From contig FUZM01000003.1 of NCBI GenBank assembly GCA_900167925.1, forward strand, positions 310,001-374,000: a stretch of DNA of 64,000 nt, given 5' to 3'. Below, one piece after another: positions 44,201 through 53,641 of this stretch. The notes beneath the pieces are model-generated. The model searched no databases, was not told the DNA's origin, and saw nothing but the letters and a program-made list of their open reading frames with translations. Position numbers and translations under genes: made by a program. Each line of letters starts with the position of its first letter. The first letter of the stretch is position 1. This stretch comes from Bacteroidales bacterium WCE2008. Lineage in GTDB: Bacteria > Bacteroidota > Bacteroidia > Bacteroidales > UBA932.

Positions 44201-46672
44201 TTACAGATTCAGCACGTTCTCAATTCTTTTGAGGTATGTTTTCTCGAGATAATCGTAGCAGTTAATGCGGTTGTATGTGTCTTTTGCTAGCATGAGCCAC
44301 CCATCCCCATCATACTCGGGATTTTCTACGTGGAAGTCATCCACGAAGGTCTTCATCCTGAACTCATCACCCTTTACCCAAATTTGCAATTCACTGTAAT
44401 TCGTAAAGAAGAGATGAATCTCTGTAGTGTCGACTGTTTTCTTTAGAATTACATCGTTACTATTGAAGTAGCCGATTTGTTTCCATAGCTCATATTGAGG
44501 TTCAGAATCATAGCAGTAAGCATAATTGTTGGCAACTAAAGGGATGAAACGATTCCGTTCAGTATCCATCATTATCTTGCTATACCAGCTGTTCTTGCGA
44601 GCCATAAAGATATTGCCTTTGAACTCAACAAGCCTAAAGGCATCATTATCTTGGAGCCAAACCTGTAAACACTTATTCTTATACAGCGCTTCATGAATCC
44701 TGCGATACAATCCAATATTCTCAGGTTCACTATCGTAGTAGGTTAGTTGGGACTTCTCTTCTACCAAGCCCCGAAGGAATTCAAGAATCTCATCATGGGA
44801 ATTAAAGTCTAGGCATAACGCAAAGAAATCATGAATATTATGATTGGCTGATATCCAATGCTTGAGGTATTTCTGTGTTTCAGCTTTATCCGTCATATTA
44901 AGCTTGAACATCTCTTTCCAATCCTTCATTTGACTGATGATCGCTCTCAATAATAAGTGACCTTCTTTCCGGAAAGGACCAGCAACACCATCTTTATCGA
45001 AGATATCCTTAACCAACTCGTATCGATGCTCGAATTCTGCGATAGACATATCCTTTGTATAGAAGAAAATAACCATTCCTTTGAAATAGGGATGTTTCTC
45101 AGCCATCCTAAAGACATCCTCCCACTTTTCATCTTCAGCGATACGTCCAGCCTTAGTAATCTCTTCTTGAATGATTCGACTACGTTCCTGAGTATCGGCA
45201 TCATCTTCATTCTCATCTGTTTTGTAGCGAGACAAAGCAGTGTAGAAGGGAACTCCTTCTTTAGCCGAATCAGCAACATGATGAATCAAATTCTTAATGC
45301 TGCGATTGAGCGATGCAACCTTAGACAAGTTGTCAATATTGGTATTCTCCACAATATTCCAGAGAACACGCATCCACTTGCGGAAAACATCTGGGAGGAA
45401 TTCCTCGTACGCCTCAATGAACTCAGTTACGCCATAAAAGATAATACGCATAACTTGCGTAAAACGAGGGGCAAAGAAGCCAGGGTTCCGGTCGGCTTCT
45501 TCCCATGCAGGAACTATTGCAGGATAAATCGTAGAAGCATAATACTGCTCGAACGTATCAAGAACTTTCTTTATGCCTACGAAATAATCCGGGTGCTCAT
45601 TGAACTGAATCAAATATTGTGTAAAACCAAGATATCGATCAGTCTTCTCTGATTCATCGGCAAAGAACTTTAACGTTTCGTCATTACGGATGTATTCGAC
45701 TTTAACTCCCTGAGCGTCGACAGAATACTTATTTGCGATGTAACGATAGAAGAAGCGGAAATAATCCTCATCATACTGGACATTGTCTTTACTCCAGAAG
45801 ATGTTTATCCATAAGGTGTCCATCCGAGAAGAGAAGTCCATATAGAACGGGACTTCCGTTCCTTTCATAGAATTCCCGAGCGTCACCATCTTTCGGCCGC
45901 ATTCAGTGCCACGCAAGTAACCAATCAGCTCTGCTTTGAAATTGTCGAAGGGACTCAAGGCACGGCCACGAGCATTCATCTTTATATACAGCTCTTCAGT
46001 AAGGCCGAACTCACCAAGCGATAGCACATAGAATGTGATCTTATTGAGGTTCTGATAAAGGGATAACTCCTCATTATCGATAATAAGCTTCTGATACCTC
46101 TCGTGAATGGCATCCAGCATTCTCAACATTCCTTCAATCGTAGAGTCTTTATCGAATGAACGGAAATACAATTTTGCATCTTTAATGACAGATGATGGAG
46201 CTTCAACATTACCGTCTTCGTTAGGAATCCCAAATACCTTGCAAGACGCTAAATACTGGCAGAAATCCGTCGCAGTAGTCCGAGTTTCATAAACAAACTT
46301 GGACAGGTTGCTGGCCAATTGTTTGTATTCATCTGAAGACCTATCCAATTCCCTGTTCCCGATATACCAGTACAGCAAATAGAGGGTTGTCAATCGCTGC
46401 TGTCCATCAATGATTTCAAATGAGAATTTTCCATTATCATCCTGCTTGTGAACGGCGCCATATACAAAGTTGAGATCAATTTCCTTCCCTTCATGTAGAG
46501 CGTTGAAAATCTCGTCTAGCAGATTGTTACGGACATAGCTTTCTTCACGACGTCCTTGGGCATAAGCACGCTGGATTCTAGGAATAACGCATCTACTGAT
46601 AAGAACTTCCGTGTCCTTATCATAGGATATCTTCTCTTCGAAAAGATTAGAATAGTTGTAGATCTTTTTCAT
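44201..46672 (-). CDS. DUF262 protein without a nuclease domain (GmrS-like)
   Basis: An 823-residue protein. Near the N-terminus are IPRIQRAYAQGR (residues 30-41) and the ParB/Srx-like motif FEIIDGQQRLTTLY (D89-R93), which define DUF262, the nucleotide-binding part of GmrSD-type modification-dependent enzymes. The remaining 700 residues are mixed helices that I do not recognise; no His-Asn (DUF1524) nuclease motif is visible. The start overlaps the upstream DUF262-DUF1524 gene by 26 bp, so the two are coupled and may form a complex. Last gene of the island operon. Confidence 0.82.
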   Translation of the reverse strand: MKKIYNYSNLFEEKISYDKDTEVLISRCVIPRIQRAYAQGRREESYVRNNLLDEIFNALHEGKEIDLNFVYGAVHKQDDNGKFSFEIIDGQQRLTTLYLLYWYIGNRELDRSSDEYKQLASNLSKFVYETRTTATDFCQYLASCKVFGIPNEDGNVEAPSSVIKDAKLYFRSFDKDSTIEGMLRMLDAIHERYQKLIIDNEELSLYQNLNKITFYVLSLGEFGLTEELYIKMNARGRALSPFDNFKAELIGYLRGTECGRKMVTLGNSMKGTEVPFYMDFSSRMDTLWINIFWSKDNVQYDEDYFRFFYRYIANKYSVDAQGVKVEYIRNDETLKFFADESEKTDRYLGFTQYLIQFNEHPDYFVGIKKVLDTFEQYYASTIYPAIVPAWEEADRNPGFFAPRFTQVMRIIFYGVTEFIEAYEEFLPDVFRKWMRVLWNIVENTNIDNLSKVASLNRSIKNLIHHVADSAKEGVPFYTALSRYKTDENEDDADTQERSRIIQEEITKAGRIAEDEKWEDVFRMAEKHPYFKGMVIFFYTKDMSIAEFEHRYELVKDIFDKDGVAGPFRKEGHLLLRAIISQMKDWKEMFKLNMTDKAETQKYLKHWISANHNIHDFFALCLDFNSHDEILEFLRGLVEEKSQLTYYDSEPENIGLYRRIHEALYKNKCLQVWLQDNDAFRLVEFKGNIFMARKNSWYSKIMMDTERNRFIPLVANNYAYCYDSEPQYELWKQIGYFNSNDVILKKTVDTTEIHLFFTNYSELQIWVKGDEFRMKTFVDDFHVENPEYDGDGWLMLAKDTYNRINCYDYLEKTYLKRIENVLNL

Positions 46673-48623
46673 CGAATGTAAGGAACGGTTTTAATTCATC
46701 AAAAATATACTGTTGGTATGCGGCTTTTTCCTCTGCACCCCATTTGAAGAAATTGCGAGTGGCGGAAGAATCGAAGTCTTTATTGAAAACCATCCTGGTC
46801 GTAGCAGGGACAAAAGTTCCTCTTTGGATACGGTCACGAATGATTTTGTTTTTTTGGCAGAACAGGGCATTTCCATAACTCTTGTTCGTTTTCTCATCGA
46901 GCAGGGTTAGGTTGCCTATACTGTTCTTCTGGTCCTCATCTGCATCCTCTTCTACAATCTCCTGAATGAGTGGGATGATAGCTTTGTATTCACCTTTAGC
47001 ATAATGAGCATCTATGCGAATCTTCGTTCCAGCCTGATCCTTAATCTCTTGGATGGCAATTAATGCGTTATCAACCCATTCTTTTTGTTCTTGTGCGCTC
47101 ATAAGGGAGTTTGTTGTGAATGAGTCGATGTGCTCAACGTTCCAGTTTTGACTTACGAAAATATCAAAGGGGAACTTATATATACTTCCGTTAAAACTGA
47201 TATCCCGAACCTTTTGGAGATTAGCCAGCTCAGAATTCATCTGATTGATGTTCAGGAACAATAGGAGTTTGTATATGGCTTGTGTGTCAGGACCATATTG
47301 GGAGACAATCTTGCCCTCCCTAATCTTGACAGCTTCAAGCTGACGCTTGATTTGAGATTCGAAGAATTCCAGAATTTCATGTTTGGTTGCAGACTCAGGA
47401 AGGCTGGCGTACTTGATGTAGAGCTTTGCGATGTCTATATTACACTGACTAAGAAAGCCGACATAATTGTATGTCTTAGGGTCTTCATACCAATCTTCCA
47501 AAGTCCTAAAAACAGACATTACTTTCGCCCATTCCTTCTTAATACAATCCTGAAGGATCTCACCCTGTAAACCGTCAAATTTGCGGTAATAATATCGGAA
47601 GATGCTATTCTTTTCTGACAGAAAAGCATTCCTATGGGTAAGACTTTTATCGACCAAATCTTCGTGATATTCCTTCAGGTCTTCCGTTTTGAAAATAAGC
47701 TCGAAGATTTCATCAATTCTATTGGGGCGGGATTTCTTGCTCGAAATGAAATACCAGAAATCATCTTTATGCAGAGTGTTCTCGATGCTTTCCCATTGCA
47801 TTGCTATTTCAAGCTGCTTGCTTTCGCGCTCTTCTTTGAGGAAATTCCGACGCTGAAGGAATAGAGCCTTGATAAGTTCAGCATCTGTGAGCTCGATCTT
47901 ACCAGTGTTGATCTTCAGGAACTCGGAAATGGCCTTTTGTTTTGATTTTTCTCCGCCATCGGAGGCCAACTCGTACCATATAAACTGAGCTGATCCACTG
48001 TCCTCCTTCAATTCTCGGCCGCAGTTAAGGAGTTTAAAGAGGGCATCACAAATATCGTCTTCTGCCCTTGAACGATGATAGCGGTCACTAATAACTTTTG
48101 CCTCGTTTTCGAGCCAACTCTCGATTATGCGATATGCATCGGAGATATGGGAGAAATCAACATTGGAATCGTCAAGCCGTTCGGCACTCAGGGCCTCAAG
48201 AAAGGAGGATGATCCTGGGCGCGTTTCATACCGTAGATGAAACAGTTCCTTGCCATCACGAGCTTTTTTGAGCTTTTCGTTAGTCCAACCTTTTTGCTCT
48301 AGTAAATACTTGTATAGGATATAAACCGAAGTCAGACGCTGCTGCCCATCTATCACTTCCCAAACATCCTGACTAGAGCTCTCAATTCCTTTCAGGATTT
48401 GAGCTTTTAGCAAATCATCCTCAATTCGTTGCACGATAATGGGCTGGAGGCAATAGAACTCACCCTCTTTTTTCTTGGAGCCAATGGTAAAACTATAAAG
48501 GTCACTCAGTAGATCCGTTACTTCCTTTGTCGTCCACCTGTACCCTCGCTGATAGGATGGGATGAAAAACGTTCTGCCGTCAAGCAACTCAGCTATGGAT
48601 ATTAGTTGAATACTATTGTTCAT
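46647..48623 (-). CDS. DUF262-DUF1524 (GmrSD-type) nuclease
   Basis: A 658-residue protein. The DUF262 part has FIPSYQRGYRW (residues 20-30) and VIDGQQRLTSVY (D92-R96). The C-terminal DUF1524 part has the His-Asn-Asn finger pattern: VEHIDSF (His at about 498), then SIGNLTLLDEKTNKSYGN (about 569-586) and a trailing KNKIIRDR. GmrSD, SspE and BrxU-type enzymes with this pair use nucleotide binding to cut DNA with particular base or backbone modifications. It sits 10 bp after the methyltransferase-helicase gene and overlaps the next DUF262 gene. Confidence 0.88.
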   Translation of the reverse strand: MNNSIQLISIAELLDGRTFFIPSYQRGYRWTTKEVTDLLSDLYSFTIGSKKKEGEFYCLQPIIVQRIEDDLLKAQILKGIESSSQDVWEVIDGQQRLTSVYILYKYLLEQKGWTNEKLKKARDGKELFHLRYETRPGSSSFLEALSAERLDDSNVDFSHISDAYRIIESWLENEAKVISDRYHRSRAEDDICDALFKLLNCGRELKEDSGSAQFIWYELASDGGEKSKQKAISEFLKINTGKIELTDAELIKALFLQRRNFLKEERESKQLEIAMQWESIENTLHKDDFWYFISSKKSRPNRIDEIFELIFKTEDLKEYHEDLVDKSLTHRNAFLSEKNSIFRYYYRKFDGLQGEILQDCIKKEWAKVMSVFRTLEDWYEDPKTYNYVGFLSQCNIDIAKLYIKYASLPESATKHEILEFFESQIKRQLEAVKIREGKIVSQYGPDTQAIYKLLLFLNINQMNSELANLQKVRDISFNGSIYKFPFDIFVSQNWNVEHIDSFTTNSLMSAQEQKEWVDNALIAIQEIKDQAGTKIRIDAHYAKGEYKAIIPLIQEIVEEDADEDQKNSIGNLTLLDEKTNKSYGNALFCQKNKIIRDRIQRGTFVPATTRMVFNKDFDSSATRNFFKWGAEEKAAYQQYIFDELKPFLTFDEKDLQLF

Positions 48624-48633
48624 TGTCTAATGG

Positions 48634-51600
48634 TTAATCTAAGGGTTTGATTGTGGCCTCAATGACGCTTATCTCATCCTTTGTTAATTCATATTTAGCG
48701 TATAATTCCTCATCAGTCCATGGTTTTGAGAAGTCTTGGACTGGGACAAACTGAAAAACGGAGGAAGGATTGTGCTGAGTGTTCTTCATAATCGAAACCA
48801 AATACCTAAAGAATTTTGTTCTAATATAGCTAATGATATTATCACACTGTACCTTTGTAAGATTATGACTGACAGGATCATACCCTATTACAAGATAAGT
48901 TTGTGAACATACGCTACCAGGTTCCCCATAAAATGGTTTGCCCAAAACATACGGGTCTGTTCCAGATCCTCCGGCTTCTGGAATATAGATTTTGTGAATA
49001 TTTACTGACTGGGCACCCTTCGGCAGATCAGCCAGTTTAATCCAACCGAACCCCTGTGGCTCAAGTTGTTTATTCGTATAAAACTTGATATTGCGTTTTT
49101 TGCTTTTACGAAGAGAATAACCTTTCCATTTTGATCCAAGTACTCCAGCCTTATCGAAAAAGTGAACAGGCCCCACGTATGAAGAGAAATTATTATCAAC
49201 AAAGAAGTTGCCTTCTTTATCAATAATTCTCCTTAGAATTGCAGGAGCATTCATGTCCCTGATTACGACACCTGTGCCAAGAGAGTTAAGTTCTTCTTCC
49301 CTTAAGTACACTTTCCCGTTTTGGTGAAGGAAATACTTACACGGCCCTGAATAAGTACCATTATATAAAAAATAGTTAACACCTCCTTTGATCTCTACGT
49401 TAGAGGGGAAGCAATCAGACGCACTTAGATAATCGTTTATAATCTGAAAATGATTACACCTGATTTTTTCATCGGCCCATCTTTCGCTGACTCCTTGTCC
49501 CTGTTTTGTCATCCATCTGCTGGGCGTAATCAACGAAATGTAATTTGCCCCCAAATCAAAGGCAATATCCATAAAAATGGGATAAATCGCCGAGGCGAAT
49601 GAGGCATTTGTGGTTGCCTGAGTAACTTGATACGGCGGGTTGCCAACTACAGCGTCAAATTTCATATTAATCAACTTTTCTTTCTTTTCAGGGCTTGAGA
49701 GCAAGTCATATGTAACAAAGCTATCAATTACATTCTCGACGGGTAAAGAGAGTAATTCATATATCTTACGAGTAAGTTCGTAAGAGACCCTGGATGTAGG
49801 TAAAGAAATAATGCTATCTTTTGCCTTAACACCAAATCTCTTGTACAAAGCACATGCAAATTCTCCCTGTTTTGAGGCTATATCTAAAATACGCTCTGAA
49901 TTATAGGGCTCAAACGGCAAAATACCGACAATGTCACAAGCCAAAAAAGAAGGTGTGACAATTTCAGATGTGGACAAACGCCCAAACTTCTTCATTGCAC
50001 GCTCGGCTCTCTCAAGAGGAGGGAGCGAGCTATCTTTCATCAACGAATTGATATTCTGAATCTTATAATCTAACTTACTAAGATAAAAAGGGTTCATCCT
50101 TGTTTGTATGATTCTCAAAACCGATAGTTTTATACCTAGACTATTGGCAATTCTACGGTCCTCTTGTAAGTATGTCTTCCCATTATGAAGGGTATTTATG
50201 ATATCATCAAGAGATTTTACATCCGACTTGGTCAAGAACGCAAAAAAGAGAATCATTGAGTAATAAGTGCATAACTTTTTCTTGAGATCAGAATCTTCGC
50301 TATCTTGTTCTAAATTATCATTATTACTAGAATTGCTATTCTTATTGGAAGGTACCTTTCCAGAACCTTCACCTTCCTCATCATCTTCTGCATCGAAATC
50401 ATCTCCATCTCCCTCATTTGGCTTGAATTCTAACCCCTTTGAAGAATCTATTGGATTCAAGTCTTTTATCGCATTCATAATACCTTCATCAGAAAGCAGC
50501 CCAAAGTCAATTGGAATGTCCCATGCTTCATCAAGGACACTTCTTTCTTTAGAATACTCACGAACTGCATCCAGAATATTGGAAGGAGTAACTTCTTCAA
50601 GTTTATCCTTGTTGATGACAATAATAGGAGAGATTTCAAGTTCTTTTGCGAGCCTTTCTTCTAACTTAAGATTCCCTTTCTTATCTGTATTAACATTGTA
50701 AAACTGAGATCTTCGTTCCTGTAGTTCAAACATCCTGACTGGATCAAAATCCACAAGTAAAGTTTGTGGCTTCATATTGAACTTTATAACTTCTTCAGAA
50801 CCCTCTGATTTGTATGTTTGAATATACTGATTTTGCAAACGGAATATTGCTTGATCGTATTCCTGGGGAGATGAAGAATTTTTAAGATACAGCATTGTAT
50901 CCCACTGCTCAACTGTACTTCCAGTTAGCATCCTATTAACCGTAAGAGTAATTGTCTTTTTCCCATTGCTTTCGAGCTCAACAATACGACTCTTTACGGA
51001 TGAAGTGTCAGGATAAAGAGTTTCATTGTCTACACCCGCAATATTAATTATCTCATAGGTAGATAGATTCTTAAAAATTGATATGTTCTCTTTAATCAAC
51101 GCTTCTAAAGCATCACATGATGCCCGAAAAGGAAGGACACAAACTATATGTCTGCACATTTTCCCTCGCTTGATCCTATCATAATTTAAAAATCCAAGAA
51201 TATTCTCGTCCTCTTTTGAGCCGTCAATAACGCTTAATAAATCCAGAACTTCATGCTCATAAACGAACTTCTTATGAGCTCCATCATTGGTTTTTTGGAT
51301 AGAAACTGGCCGCAAAAGGTCAGCGATAGAAGCAGACCTCCCCTCAGACCTCAGTTGCTCAATTCTTTTTCTGGAAGATTCGTTTGGATTAAAGGCGAAA
51401 CGGACCATTTGTGGGAAACCATAGTACGGATTATCCCATTCCTTCACATCTTTATTGGTGCCATCATCATCAGAAAGAAGATGCTCATCATCCCACTTTC
51501 TCTGCTCTTCAACGATGTCTGAGAATTGACAAAAAGCGATAATATCCTCCTTTGTGAATTCGCCACTCATTAATATCCTGTATGGGGTTCCCGAGAGATG

Positions 51601-52638
51601 TATCCTAACTTTTGAGTCTAATTGTTTTATAGCCTCCTCATCTTCTTCTTTAACAAAGTCTCCAAAACGACCAGCTGTCTCCACTGCTGCCTCAGCTTTC
51701 ATTAATCCAAAAGACTCTAATACTCGACCATATCTCTCAGCTCTAGCGCCAAAATGAGTTTCATCTACAATCAACAAATCCGATTGTAGGTGAAATACTT
51801 CGGTGTGACGTTTCTTTATCTCATCTCCTTGCAAGTCCTGAAGTGTCAAGAATAACACAATTCGTTTATTATTGGATAGAGTCGAAGAAATTAGGTTATC
51901 GTTGCGATCTAGCGATTCTGCATCTGCGAAAATGTACTCACTGAACAAAACATGACTCTCAACGGTCTTCTTCCACTCCTCCTTTACATCAGCTTTTGCA
52001 GATACAATTATCACATACTTAGCTTTCGCATCAAGGGCGCAACACATTGATGTGAAAGACTTTCCAAATCGCATTACTGCATATAAAAGCAGATTATTAC
52101 GCCCCTTTTCTACTGCAGCATGGAAGTTTTTGATAGCCGTATCTTGATTGGGACGAGGTTCGTAATCTTCAACCCTATCGTATGTCCTTATAACCGGTAA
52201 GTAATCAGTATTATAGAATGTATATCTTCCATCATTATCATCAGCACTGCGATGGATATCATTGATAGCATCTTTTACGTCTTCTATTGTAGCATCTCTG
52301 AAAAATTCCTTTGAGTAATAAGGAATACCCGGGACATCCTCTTGTTTTAAACGGGCTCTTTTACGAACATCTGTTAAAAAGGAATGTACAGCAAAATCAC
52401 GAAATAGAGTGTTATCATCAATACGTGCAGAATCCTGATACTCTTTTCGAAGATTTGGAAAATACTTTCTCCACTCGTCCAGTCTTGTCTCTACAGGGCG
52501 ATATGTGTCACCTACTTTTAGATAGTTTGGAACAGTTTCCGTAGAAAAAGCGTATATAGAAGGATCAACCCTACCAACTATGATGTTGTCTAAGATTGCT
52601 GTGTTAAAACGACATCCTGGAGTATTAGTTTCTGCCAT
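48634..52638 (-). CDS. GIY-YIG-like nuclease-SF2 helicase-N6-adenine methyltransferase (single-chain restriction-modification)
   Basis: A 1334-residue protein. Residues 12-100: SIYAFSTET, NYLKVGDTYRP and ETRLDEW resemble the GIY, YIG and Arg motifs of GIY-YIG nucleases of the T5orf172 kind; the usual catalytic Glu may be Asp in LFRDFAVH. Residues about 155-650: an SF2 helicase/translocase with MRFGKS (189-194), DETH (292-295), HLSGTPYRI and QAIFRLQNQ. An acidic Ser/Asn-rich linker is near 745-800. Residues about 900-1334: an Eco57I-like methyltransferase with ILDIASKQGEF and NPPY (1000-1003). It probably methylates and cuts in one chain. Second gene of the operon, 4 bp after the companion gene. 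Confidence 0.85.
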   Translation of the reverse strand: MAETNTPGCRFNTAILDNIIVGRVDPSIYAFSTETVPNYLKVGDTYRPVETRLDEWRKYFPNLRKEYQDSARIDDNTLFRDFAVHSFLTDVRKRARLKQEDVPGIPYYSKEFFRDATIEDVKDAINDIHRSADDNDGRYTFYNTDYLPVIRTYDRVEDYEPRPNQDTAIKNFHAAVEKGRNNLLLYAVMRFGKSFTSMCCALDAKAKYVIIVSAKADVKEEWKKTVESHVLFSEYIFADAESLDRNDNLISSTLSNNKRIVLFLTLQDLQGDEIKKRHTEVFHLQSDLLIVDETHFGARAERYGRVLESFGLMKAEAAVETAGRFGDFVKEEDEEAIKQLDSKVRIHLSGTPYRILMSGEFTKEDIIAFCQFSDIVEEQRKWDDEHLLSDDDGTNKDVKEWDNPYYGFPQMVRFAFNPNESSRKRIEQLRSEGRSASIADLLRPVSIQKTNDGAHKKFVYEHEVLDLLSVIDGSKEDENILGFLNYDRIKRGKMCRHIVCVLPFRASCDALEALIKENISIFKNLSTYEIINIAGVDNETLYPDTSSVKSRIVELESNGKKTITLTVNRMLTGSTVEQWDTMLYLKNSSSPQEYDQAIFRLQNQYIQTYKSEGSEEVIKFNMKPQTLLVDFDPVRMFELQERRSQFYNVNTDKKGNLKLEERLAKELEISPIIVINKDKLEEVTPSNILDAVREYSKERSVLDEAWDIPIDFGLLSDEGIMNAIKDLNPIDSSKGLEFKPNEGDGDDFDAEDDEEGEGSGKVPSNKNSNSSNNDNLEQDSEDSDLKKKLCTYYSMILFFAFLTKSDVKSLDDIINTLHNGKTYLQEDRRIANSLGIKLSVLRIIQTRMNPFYLSKLDYKIQNINSLMKDSSLPPLERAERAMKKFGRLSTSEIVTPSFLACDIVGILPFEPYNSERILDIASKQGEFACALYKRFGVKAKDSIISLPTSRVSYELTRKIYELLSLPVENVIDSFVTYDLLSSPEKKEKLINMKFDAVVGNPPYQVTQATTNASFASAIYPIFMDIAFDLGANYISLITPSRWMTKQGQGVSERWADEKIRCNHFQIINDYLSASDCFPSNVEIKGGVNYFLYNGTYSGPCKYFLHQNGKVYLREEELNSLGTGVVIRDMNAPAILRRIIDKEGNFFVDNNFSSYVGPVHFFDKAGVLGSKWKGYSLRKSKKRNIKFYTNKQLEPQGFGWIKLADLPKGAQSVNIHKIYIPEAGGSGTDPYVLGKPFYGEPGSVCSQTYLVIGYDPVSHNLTKVQCDNIISYIRTKFFRYLVSIMKNTQHNPSSVFQFVPVQDFSKPWTDEELYAKYELTKDEISVIEATIKPLD

Positions 52639-52642
52639 AATA

Positions 52643-53641
52643 TTATGATTTAAGAATATCTACGAAACGGACAATATTCCCAGTTTCCCAATCCTTTATC
52701 TTACAATACACTCCATTATGAGAAAACTTGTCGTTTCTTTTACAGCCCGCACACTTGACAATTGCTTCTTTAACCTCAAATATATCTTCAGTTCTAACGA
52801 CGATATCATGACAAGAATTGGGGACCACGCCCCTCATCCCATCCATTTGCCAGATATTCCATGAAATAATGTCCGCGATTTCGAAAAGCTCATTGACAGA
52901 AGGCATCTTTAAAAACTTATCTGCATAAAAATCCACATAAGTAAACAAGAGAGCCTCCCGTGCTAGCAGTAGACTATCTCCTTGCCACTCATAGCCATAT
53001 ACGCTCTGATAGGATTTTCTCGCCCATTCACGCCATTCTTCTAATGAAGATGTATTCTCAGCGACAATACGAAGCTTCCTATCAAGCATGCCAATTCGTT
53101 GCATAACGGGGATATAATCACCAGTAGTAGTATCATATCTACTAACGAGGTACGGCGCTTCTCCACAAGTGATTTCCAGCCTGGTTGATAATACGTACGA
53201 TTTCCACGACTTTCCTCTCGGAAATTTGACTTTATTCATATTAACAACCCAAAAAGAAGCGGAGTTCTCAAAGCACTCAGTATTGAATACGCCTTCACGA
53301 CCAAACCACGCATTATCAACCAGATTATTTTGCAAATTGCATAACCAGGAAGGAGTAAACACTTCAGCTTTATCTCTCACTCGCGCATCCTGAAGAGTCT
53401 TTTTCTTGAGAACTCGCGGCATAATTACTTGACCATTATTTCCCGTAATCTTTTCAGGCGTGATTTCATCTGAAAAATCATACCCCTCGCCGAGTGATTT
53501 ATAATCGTCTGATGCCCAAAAGATAAACTTTTGGGTATTATGATCTATCAGGAGCTGTTTTAACAACTCCGGCGACTGAGAATGCAAATTGGTTTCTCTT
53601 ATGTCAACCGATTCGTCTTGTATATGCTTTAAGCCACTCAT
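52643..53641 (-). CDS. Unknown restriction-modification companion protein with FTP motif
   Basis: A 332-residue protein and the first gene of the island operon. KAEVFTPSWLCNLQNNLVD (residues 91-109) resembles motif X of Eco57I/N6-adenine methyltransferases, where an FTP segment binds the methyl donor, but no NPPY or GxG motif I is present. So it is not a complete methyltransferase. The C-terminus has CAGCK and a further Cys (VYCKI), a possible zinc site. It may supply the missing methyltransferase part, or act as specificity or assembly subunit for the 1334-residue protein 4 bp downstream. The family name is not known to me. Confidence 0.65.
   Translation of the reverse strand: MSGLKHIQDESVDIRETNLHSQSPELLKQLLIDHNTQKFIFWASDDYKSLGEGYDFSDEITPEKITGNNGQVIMPRVLKKKTLQDARVRDKAEVFTPSWLCNLQNNLVDNAWFGREGVFNTECFENSASFWVVNMNKVKFPRGKSWKSYVLSTRLEITCGEAPYLVSRYDTTTGDYIPVMQRIGMLDRKLRIVAENTSSLEEWREWARKSYQSVYGYEWQGDSLLLAREALLFTYVDFYADKFLKMPSVNELFEIADIISWNIWQMDGMRGVVPNSCHDIVVRTEDIFEVKEAIVKCAGCKRNDKFSHNGVYCKIKDWETGNIVRFVDILKS

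Follow-up and report, generated by a model that had tools for sequence, protein, structure and literature searches.

The locus studied here raises the question of what kind of enzyme is encoded by one open frame of 1334 amino acids that joins a GIY-YIG-like nuclease, a superfamily 2 (SF2) helicase and an adenine methyltransferase, and whether an Asp at the place of the usual catalytic Glu means that its nuclease is dead. The frame lies on the minus strand at 48634-52638 of a 64,000-nucleotide stretch of DNA, hereafter the window, from Bacteroidales bacterium WCE2008 (contig FUZM01000003.1, positions 310,001 to 374,000). Our analysis indicates that it is very probably one of the two genes of a DrdVI-type restriction-modification system, in which the methyltransferase-like subunit M1 (52643-53641, minus strand) is paired with a fused R-M2 chain (48634-52638). 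The grounds for this assignment are the domain make-up of the chain, homology to all three subunits of DrdVI, a conserved gene pair, and the retention of nuclease, motor and methylase residues.

The fused R-M2 chain and its M1 partner

The chain begins with a T5orf172 GIY-YIG domain (residues 28-128; 52255-52557), identified by Pfam family PF10544, an AlphaFold2 model and Foldseek matches to the viral models of BFVD. This is followed by an SF2 helicase-like motor at approximately residues 155-690 (50569-52176; the outer limits are estimates), assigned from conservation and from Pfam ResIII (residues 159-310, E 1.2e-11), and by an adenine methyltransferase module, M2, at approximately residues 880-1334 (48637-50001), which includes a C-terminal target-recognition region and is assigned from Pfam Eco57I (residues 989-1077, E 3.1e-16) and homology to M2.DrdVI. 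All three parts lie on the minus strand. The motifs on which the initial annotation relied were all located: SIYAFS (residues 27-32), NYLKVGDT (38-45), ETRLDEW (50-56) and LFRDFAVH (78-85) in the nuclease domain, MRFGKS (189-194), DETH (292-295) and SGTP (349-352) in the motor, and NPPY (1000-1003) in the methyltransferase. That annotation had placed nuclease, helicase and methyltransferase in one chain; all three are present, but the chain is probably not self-sufficient, as M1 is a conserved partner. PADLOC classed the chain as REase_MTase_IIG (PDLC03626, 1146 bits, covering residues 14-981) and the 332-residue M1, encoded 4 bp upstream, as MTase_II (PDLC03390, 421 bits). An NCBIfam scan gave no match, sequence searches of the PDB with the whole chain, the nuclease profile, M1 and M2.DrdVI returned nothing useful, and PF13651, a first guess, had no match in the organism's own genome.

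The M1, M2 and R subunits of DrdVI, from plasmid pDrdVI of Deinococcus wulumuqiensis NEB 479, are all homologous to the window, with 24% identity over 702 columns for R (E 5e-40), 33% over 357 columns for M2 (E 1e-50) and 22% over 185 columns for M1 (E 8e-5). The start of DrdVI R matches the T5orf172 profile of the window's family, carries the same Asp, and is followed by an SF2 motor, as in the window. They differ in arrangement: DrdVI consists of three genes in the order M1, M2, R, while in the window M1 stands beside a single chain that unites R and M2. M1-2.DrdVI recognizes GCAGCC, produces N6-methyladenine, is classed as IIG, and has been cloned in E. coli (PMC6430315); as identity to DrdVI is just 22-33%, the recognition site of the window system need not be GCAGCC. 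M1-M2.MaeIV of Methanococcus aeolicus, which recognizes GCACY, has been described as resembling DrdVI and as part of a "so called split methylase/RM" family (PMC10113651). The Type IIG trait of nuclease and methylase in one polypeptide is found in the window chain, with M1 as a second polypeptide. PDLC03626 is matched at one end by DrdVI R and at the other by DrdVI M2, so the fused form is already part of the curated PADLOC collection, whose models give no mechanism. The window system is a member of the already known DrdVI kind, the parts of which are known as separate genes.

Similar parts occur in other combinations. Several hundred systems are described in which an MmeI-like methylase and a translocase are accompanied by a separate GIY-YIG protein (PMC4752239). 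The OspHL35III class and the Bacillus subtilis dnmA-yeeB-yeeC genes possess a methylase, an SF2 translocase and a GIY-YIG/T5orf172 protein, as does the window (PMC4752239, PMC9973331), but their methylase is a one-chain MmeI-type enzyme and their GIY-YIG protein is separate, whereas the window joins nuclease and motor in one chain and has a two-part methylase.

We collected 112 systems, the window's own included (loci L003 and L078, and L004 and L099, have identical R rows, and each is counted twice); the scan of genome contigs yielded 155 relatives, of which 80 were kept. Matches at E <=1e-30 were present in 28 of 395 genomes of the phylum, four of which, including that of the organism itself, encode a full-length single chain. 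Of the other 24 matching genomes, 17 were fetched with flanks, and R was unfused to M2 in each. M1 lies upstream of R-M2 in 75 of 84 fused loci, at a median distance of 2 bp and within 60 bp in 70 of the 75; six of the nine fused loci without M1 start within about 310 bases of a contig end. Of the 24 systems with separate genes, 22 are arranged as M1, M2, R; the others are L152, at a record end, and L170, whose contig ends after 2.3 kb in which no M1 or M2 appears. The fused chain differs from this order in that R precedes M2. A single origin of the fusion was unsupported: a quick tree of 109 of the 112 R rows (rows shorter than 700 residues were left out) needs five label changes, three of them forced by starred branches. 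Two caveats apply: L097 and L102, although labelled "split", are fused genes with a truncated or interrupted frame, and the row of L123 is odd and very long. A second group in this tree, distant from the first, joins Paenisporosarcina and Pediococcus with Treponema. Three loci (L102, L158 and L069) have an interrupted or shortened R frame beside M1, reflecting either assembly errors or decay. A 345-kb viral contig encodes a 1795-residue relative (L123:7308-12695) in which only the R part was recognized and no M1 or M2 was found.

The T5orf172 domain and Asp81

The GIY-YIG-like N-terminus proposed by the initial annotation was borne out by profile and model alike. When residues 1-172 were scanned alone, T5orf172 matched with E 3.8e-7 and 31.0 bits, above the curated cut-off of 20; the match was unreported when the full-length chain was scanned with Pfam, and a whole-genome PF10544 scan missed the window's own domain, so that counts from such scans are lower bounds. 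Among the N-terminal domains of 69 members scanned at E <=10 (69 of 70 chosen, L123 being left out), T5orf172 matched in 42 and MUG113 in 19. An AlphaFold2 model built from the alignment of these 69 domains had a predicted local distance difference test score (pLDDT) of 92.0, and Foldseek returned 16 matches to it in BFVD at E <=0.001, of which eight are named T5orf172, two Bro-N and one GIY-YIG, with five unnamed or uncharacterized. Profile-profile alignment (hhalign) to nine other T5orf172 domains gave a probability of 96.6 and E 6.4e-10. The fold predicted for the N-terminus is thus T5orf172/GIY-YIG-like, with weak matches to solved structures that are taken up below. Elsewhere among restriction systems, few GIY-YIG enzymes of Type II are listed (PMC4081073), and one HsdR of Type I is described as carrying a GIY-YIG domain as an insertion (PMC1564403).

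A change of the usual catalytic Glu to Asp in LFRDFAVH had been noted from the window alone, and it is real. The residue, Asp81 (52396-52398, minus strand), was placed by alignment and its column matched by hhalign. The R subunits of 110 of the 112 systems could be aligned (L102 and L158 lack an N-terminal match), and all 110 carry Asp at this position. By comparison, 25 T5orf172 matches were fetched, of which five proved to be R subunits; among the remaining 20, the motif K-(I/V/L)-G...R...xxxxH was readable in nine, all nine with Glu, and eleven lacked it. The other expected residues are kept in the R subunits: Arg52 in 110 of 110, Tyr29, Lys41 and Gly43 in 109 of 109 non-gap rows, Glu111 in 109 of 110 (one Asn), and His85 in 104 of 110, the other six having Arg, as does DrdVI R. 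Asp is therefore the norm of the family, and for this reason it does not suggest decay or a dead nuclease. Asp81 appears to be a family mark under selection, and the nuclease activity of the domain is a prediction.

The strongest alternative, though an unlikely one, is that the domain binds DNA or has a structural role, the system then being limited to methylation, or stopping phage without cutting DNA, as BREX seems to do. It is favored by the T5orf172 nuclease Odn, for which the E180A change is reported to leave no cleavage (PMC8263062); we infer that this essential Glu occupies the position of Asp81. Against it stands the retention of Tyr, Lys, Gly, Arg, Asp and Glu111 even though identity to the window's T5orf172 domain is no more than 23-30% in the separate-gene relatives; in a dead domain, drift should have set in.

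A methylase apparently divided between M1 and M2

The methylase residues are shared out between the two proteins. In M1 motifs X, I, II and III are present and NPPY is absent, and in M2 NPPY is present and the acid of motif II is absent. The motif II acid, which has a role in binding S-adenosylmethionine (SAM), is present as Glu or Asp in 100 of 100 M1 sequences, none of which has an NPPY-like motif. NPPY is found in 107 of 110 M2 modules, those of L062, L097 and L113 being without it (L097 and L113 run into a contig end), and an acid at the aligned motif II site of M2 was found in none of 109, with one gap. In motif I of M2, Lys replaces the first Gly in 103 of 109. In nearly every system examined, then, one protein carries the acid of motif II and the other the catalytic NPPY. 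This was the least expected outcome of the analysis, and it turns the term "split methylase" into a testable claim.

The AlphaFold2 model of M1 (pLDDT 91.5) had as its best VIA matches the DNA adenine methyltransferases CamA (Z 8.4), MmeI (Z 8.3) and LlaBIII (Z 7.5), with root-mean-square deviations of 3.2, 3.2 and 4.5 over 136, 155 and 187 residues, respectively. A Foldseek search of M1 against the PDB gave mostly irrelevant matches with some DNA methylases among them, and a PDB sequence search with M1.DrdVI gave only sub-threshold matches to Type I methylases (E 0.081 and 0.24).

Two readings of this division remain. In the first, M2 would bind SAM in a non-standard way and M1 would act as a SAM-binding helper. 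In the second, which we regard as possible but doubtful, the enzyme would be a composite methyltransferase with one active site shared by both proteins, in which M1 binds and presents SAM and the NPPY-recognition half of M2 catalyzes, the N-terminal pocket of M2 being altered such that SAM would no longer bind there in the usual manner. A simple division of labor between M1 and M2 is opposed by the strong retention of other motif I residues in M2 (Asp in 109 of 109, Gly in 107 of 109) and by 16 of 110 M2 modules in which an acid lies three positions past the site aligned with motif II; on account of these residues, M2 may still be able to bind SAM.

The border of the putative halves can be examined in a Treponema saccharophilum plasmid (L152), where a separate gene, beginning seven residues ahead of GNPP, encodes the NPPY-recognition half of M2 (L152:24-1058, near the start of a circular record), and R carries the N-terminal half of M2 at its end (L152:1060-4416). 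Because the two halves are separated in this plasmid, a module border between motifs III and IV of M2 is suggested, and if the composite reading holds, the NPPY-recognition half would be a true module. In 13 of 21 separate M2 genes, against 3.5 expected, a Shine-Dalgarno-like site precedes an internal Met that is located seven residues ahead of GNPPY; the set comprised separate M2 genes from L149-L151 and L155-L174, with L069, L097, L102 and L152 excluded from the split group, the expectation was taken from codon usage, and the rows are related, so no p-value is given. No such excess was seen in the fused genes (5 of 62 against 3.9 expected). An internal translation start in the separate M2 genes is therefore possible. 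In one locus a second NPPY-recognition open reading frame (ORF) lies right behind the fused chain (L076:10647-11717) and is possibly a spare specificity cassette. A title-level literature search for division of NPPY and the SAM motifs between two subunits found nothing on point, most subscription journals falling outside its scope.

Weighing the DrdVI-type reading against its alternatives

Given the homology of the window system to cloned relatives, and with methylation published for M1-2.DrdVI and M1-M2.MaeIV, M1 and the M2 module would be expected to recognize jointly a short asymmetric DNA site and to methylate one adenine. On unmethylated incoming DNA, the SF2 motor would use ATP to move along the DNA and the T5orf172 GIY-YIG domain, with Asp81 at the place of the usual Glu, would cut, perhaps after two complexes meet, as in Type ISP and Type III enzymes, the Type ISP enzymes LlaGI and LlaBIII being single polypeptides that translocate (PMC5737866). 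A defensive role is in keeping with Vibrio crassostreae, in which deleting homologs of the related dnmA and yeeB is reported to have raised sensitivity to some phages (PMC9973331).

Several observations count against this account. The solved-structure comparisons of the nuclease domain are weak: the best Foldseek match had E 0.91 (the UvrC GIY-YIG domain), and in VIA five Slx1 GIY-YIG entries ranked at the top with Z 3.7-4.6, with unrelated chains from Z 3.4 down. Such scores alone are no proof of the fold, and together with the Pfam and profile-profile matches they are consistent with a coherent GIY-YIG case. Pfam found only ResIII and no T5orf172 in full-length DrdVI R. The R subunits depart from the canonical GIY-YIG active site in lacking its catalytic Glu, and we do not claim canonical GIY-YIG catalysis for them, since Asp replaces Glu in 110 of 110. 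M1 is absent from three of the 84 fused loci (L062, L064 and L113) despite 2.5-10 kb of flank. The collision step is an analogy, the DrdVI-type literature examined reports methylation and holds no report of cleavage for DrdVI or its relatives, a point that also favors a non-cutting system, and the related but different B. subtilis dnmA-yeeB-yeeC genes are described as giving no phage protection under the conditions tested, their authors viewing them as a relic (PMC9973331).

Following this B. subtilis precedent, the window locus could be a relic that only methylates, as the authors hold for dnmA (PMC9973331). The patchy occurrence of matches, in seven of 61 close genomes including the organism's own, would fit such a view. 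B. subtilis YeeB and YeeC, however, reportedly miss stretches of their C-terminal domains (PMC9973331), whereas all frames in the window are intact and their motif residues are kept, and we hold a relic to be less likely still than a non-cutting system.

The neighborhood offers a further alternative, that two DUF262 genes directly downstream are subunits of a four-gene complex. The first, a DUF262/GmrSD_N and GmrSD_C gene (46647-48623, minus strand), lies 10 bp downstream of the fused chain, and the second, a DUF262/GmrSD_N gene (44201-46672, minus strand), overlaps the first by 26 bp; this tight spacing and a common stretch of low G+C content favor a complex, as do the DUF262-like ORFs that blastp located immediately downstream in L058 (E 8e-5) and L088 (E 5e-6) and an annotated DUF262 gene nearby on a Sphingopyxis plasmid. 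These two loci are, however, the only ones with DUF262 by blastp among 82 (L042-L123), and phmmer found none in L042-L122 (E 1e-4; 68 of these loci with >=5 kb on one side). Since phmmer missed both blastp cases, the DUF262 counts are lower bounds. DUF262 genes were accordingly rejected as conserved partners, and a four-gene complex is improbable.

The DUF262/GmrSD-like genes (44201-48623) are possibly a modification-dependent defense pair within the same operon. In 41 of 81 loci (L042-L122), the first ORF downstream of the fused chain is on the same strand, at least 150 amino acids long and within 300 bp. These ORFs are mostly of different families (by eye SIR2-like, OLD-like ATPase, Schlafen-like and DUF262), and the position looks like a slot for variable defense genes. 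G+C content is 0.37-0.45 over 43.5-54 kb of the window and mostly 0.48-0.57 elsewhere in it, and this low stretch suggests that the cluster was acquired as an island.

Type ISP enzymes such as LlaGI and LlaBIII combine nuclease, motor, adenine methylase and target-recognition region in a single polypeptide, in the same order as the window; they have a self-contained methylase and a PD-(D/E)xK nuclease and are without an M1 gene. In the window M1 is a conserved partner and M2 lacks the motif II acid. That the window encodes such an enzyme with a diverged PD-(D/E)xK nuclease is very improbable, for while the order of domains and the resemblance of the M1 fold to the LlaBIII methylase would allow it, profile and fold both identify the N-terminal domain as T5orf172 and the separate M1 gene is conserved.

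In conclusion, the DrdVI-type assignment answers the doubt raised by the Asp and supplies both a family and a partner gene for a widespread class of restriction enzymes that probably depend on ATP. Without a confirmed composite site, this would be an ordinary, if under-described, defense system. If the composite site is true, it would represent an unusual design for a DNA methyltransferase and may provide a handle for engineering specificity.

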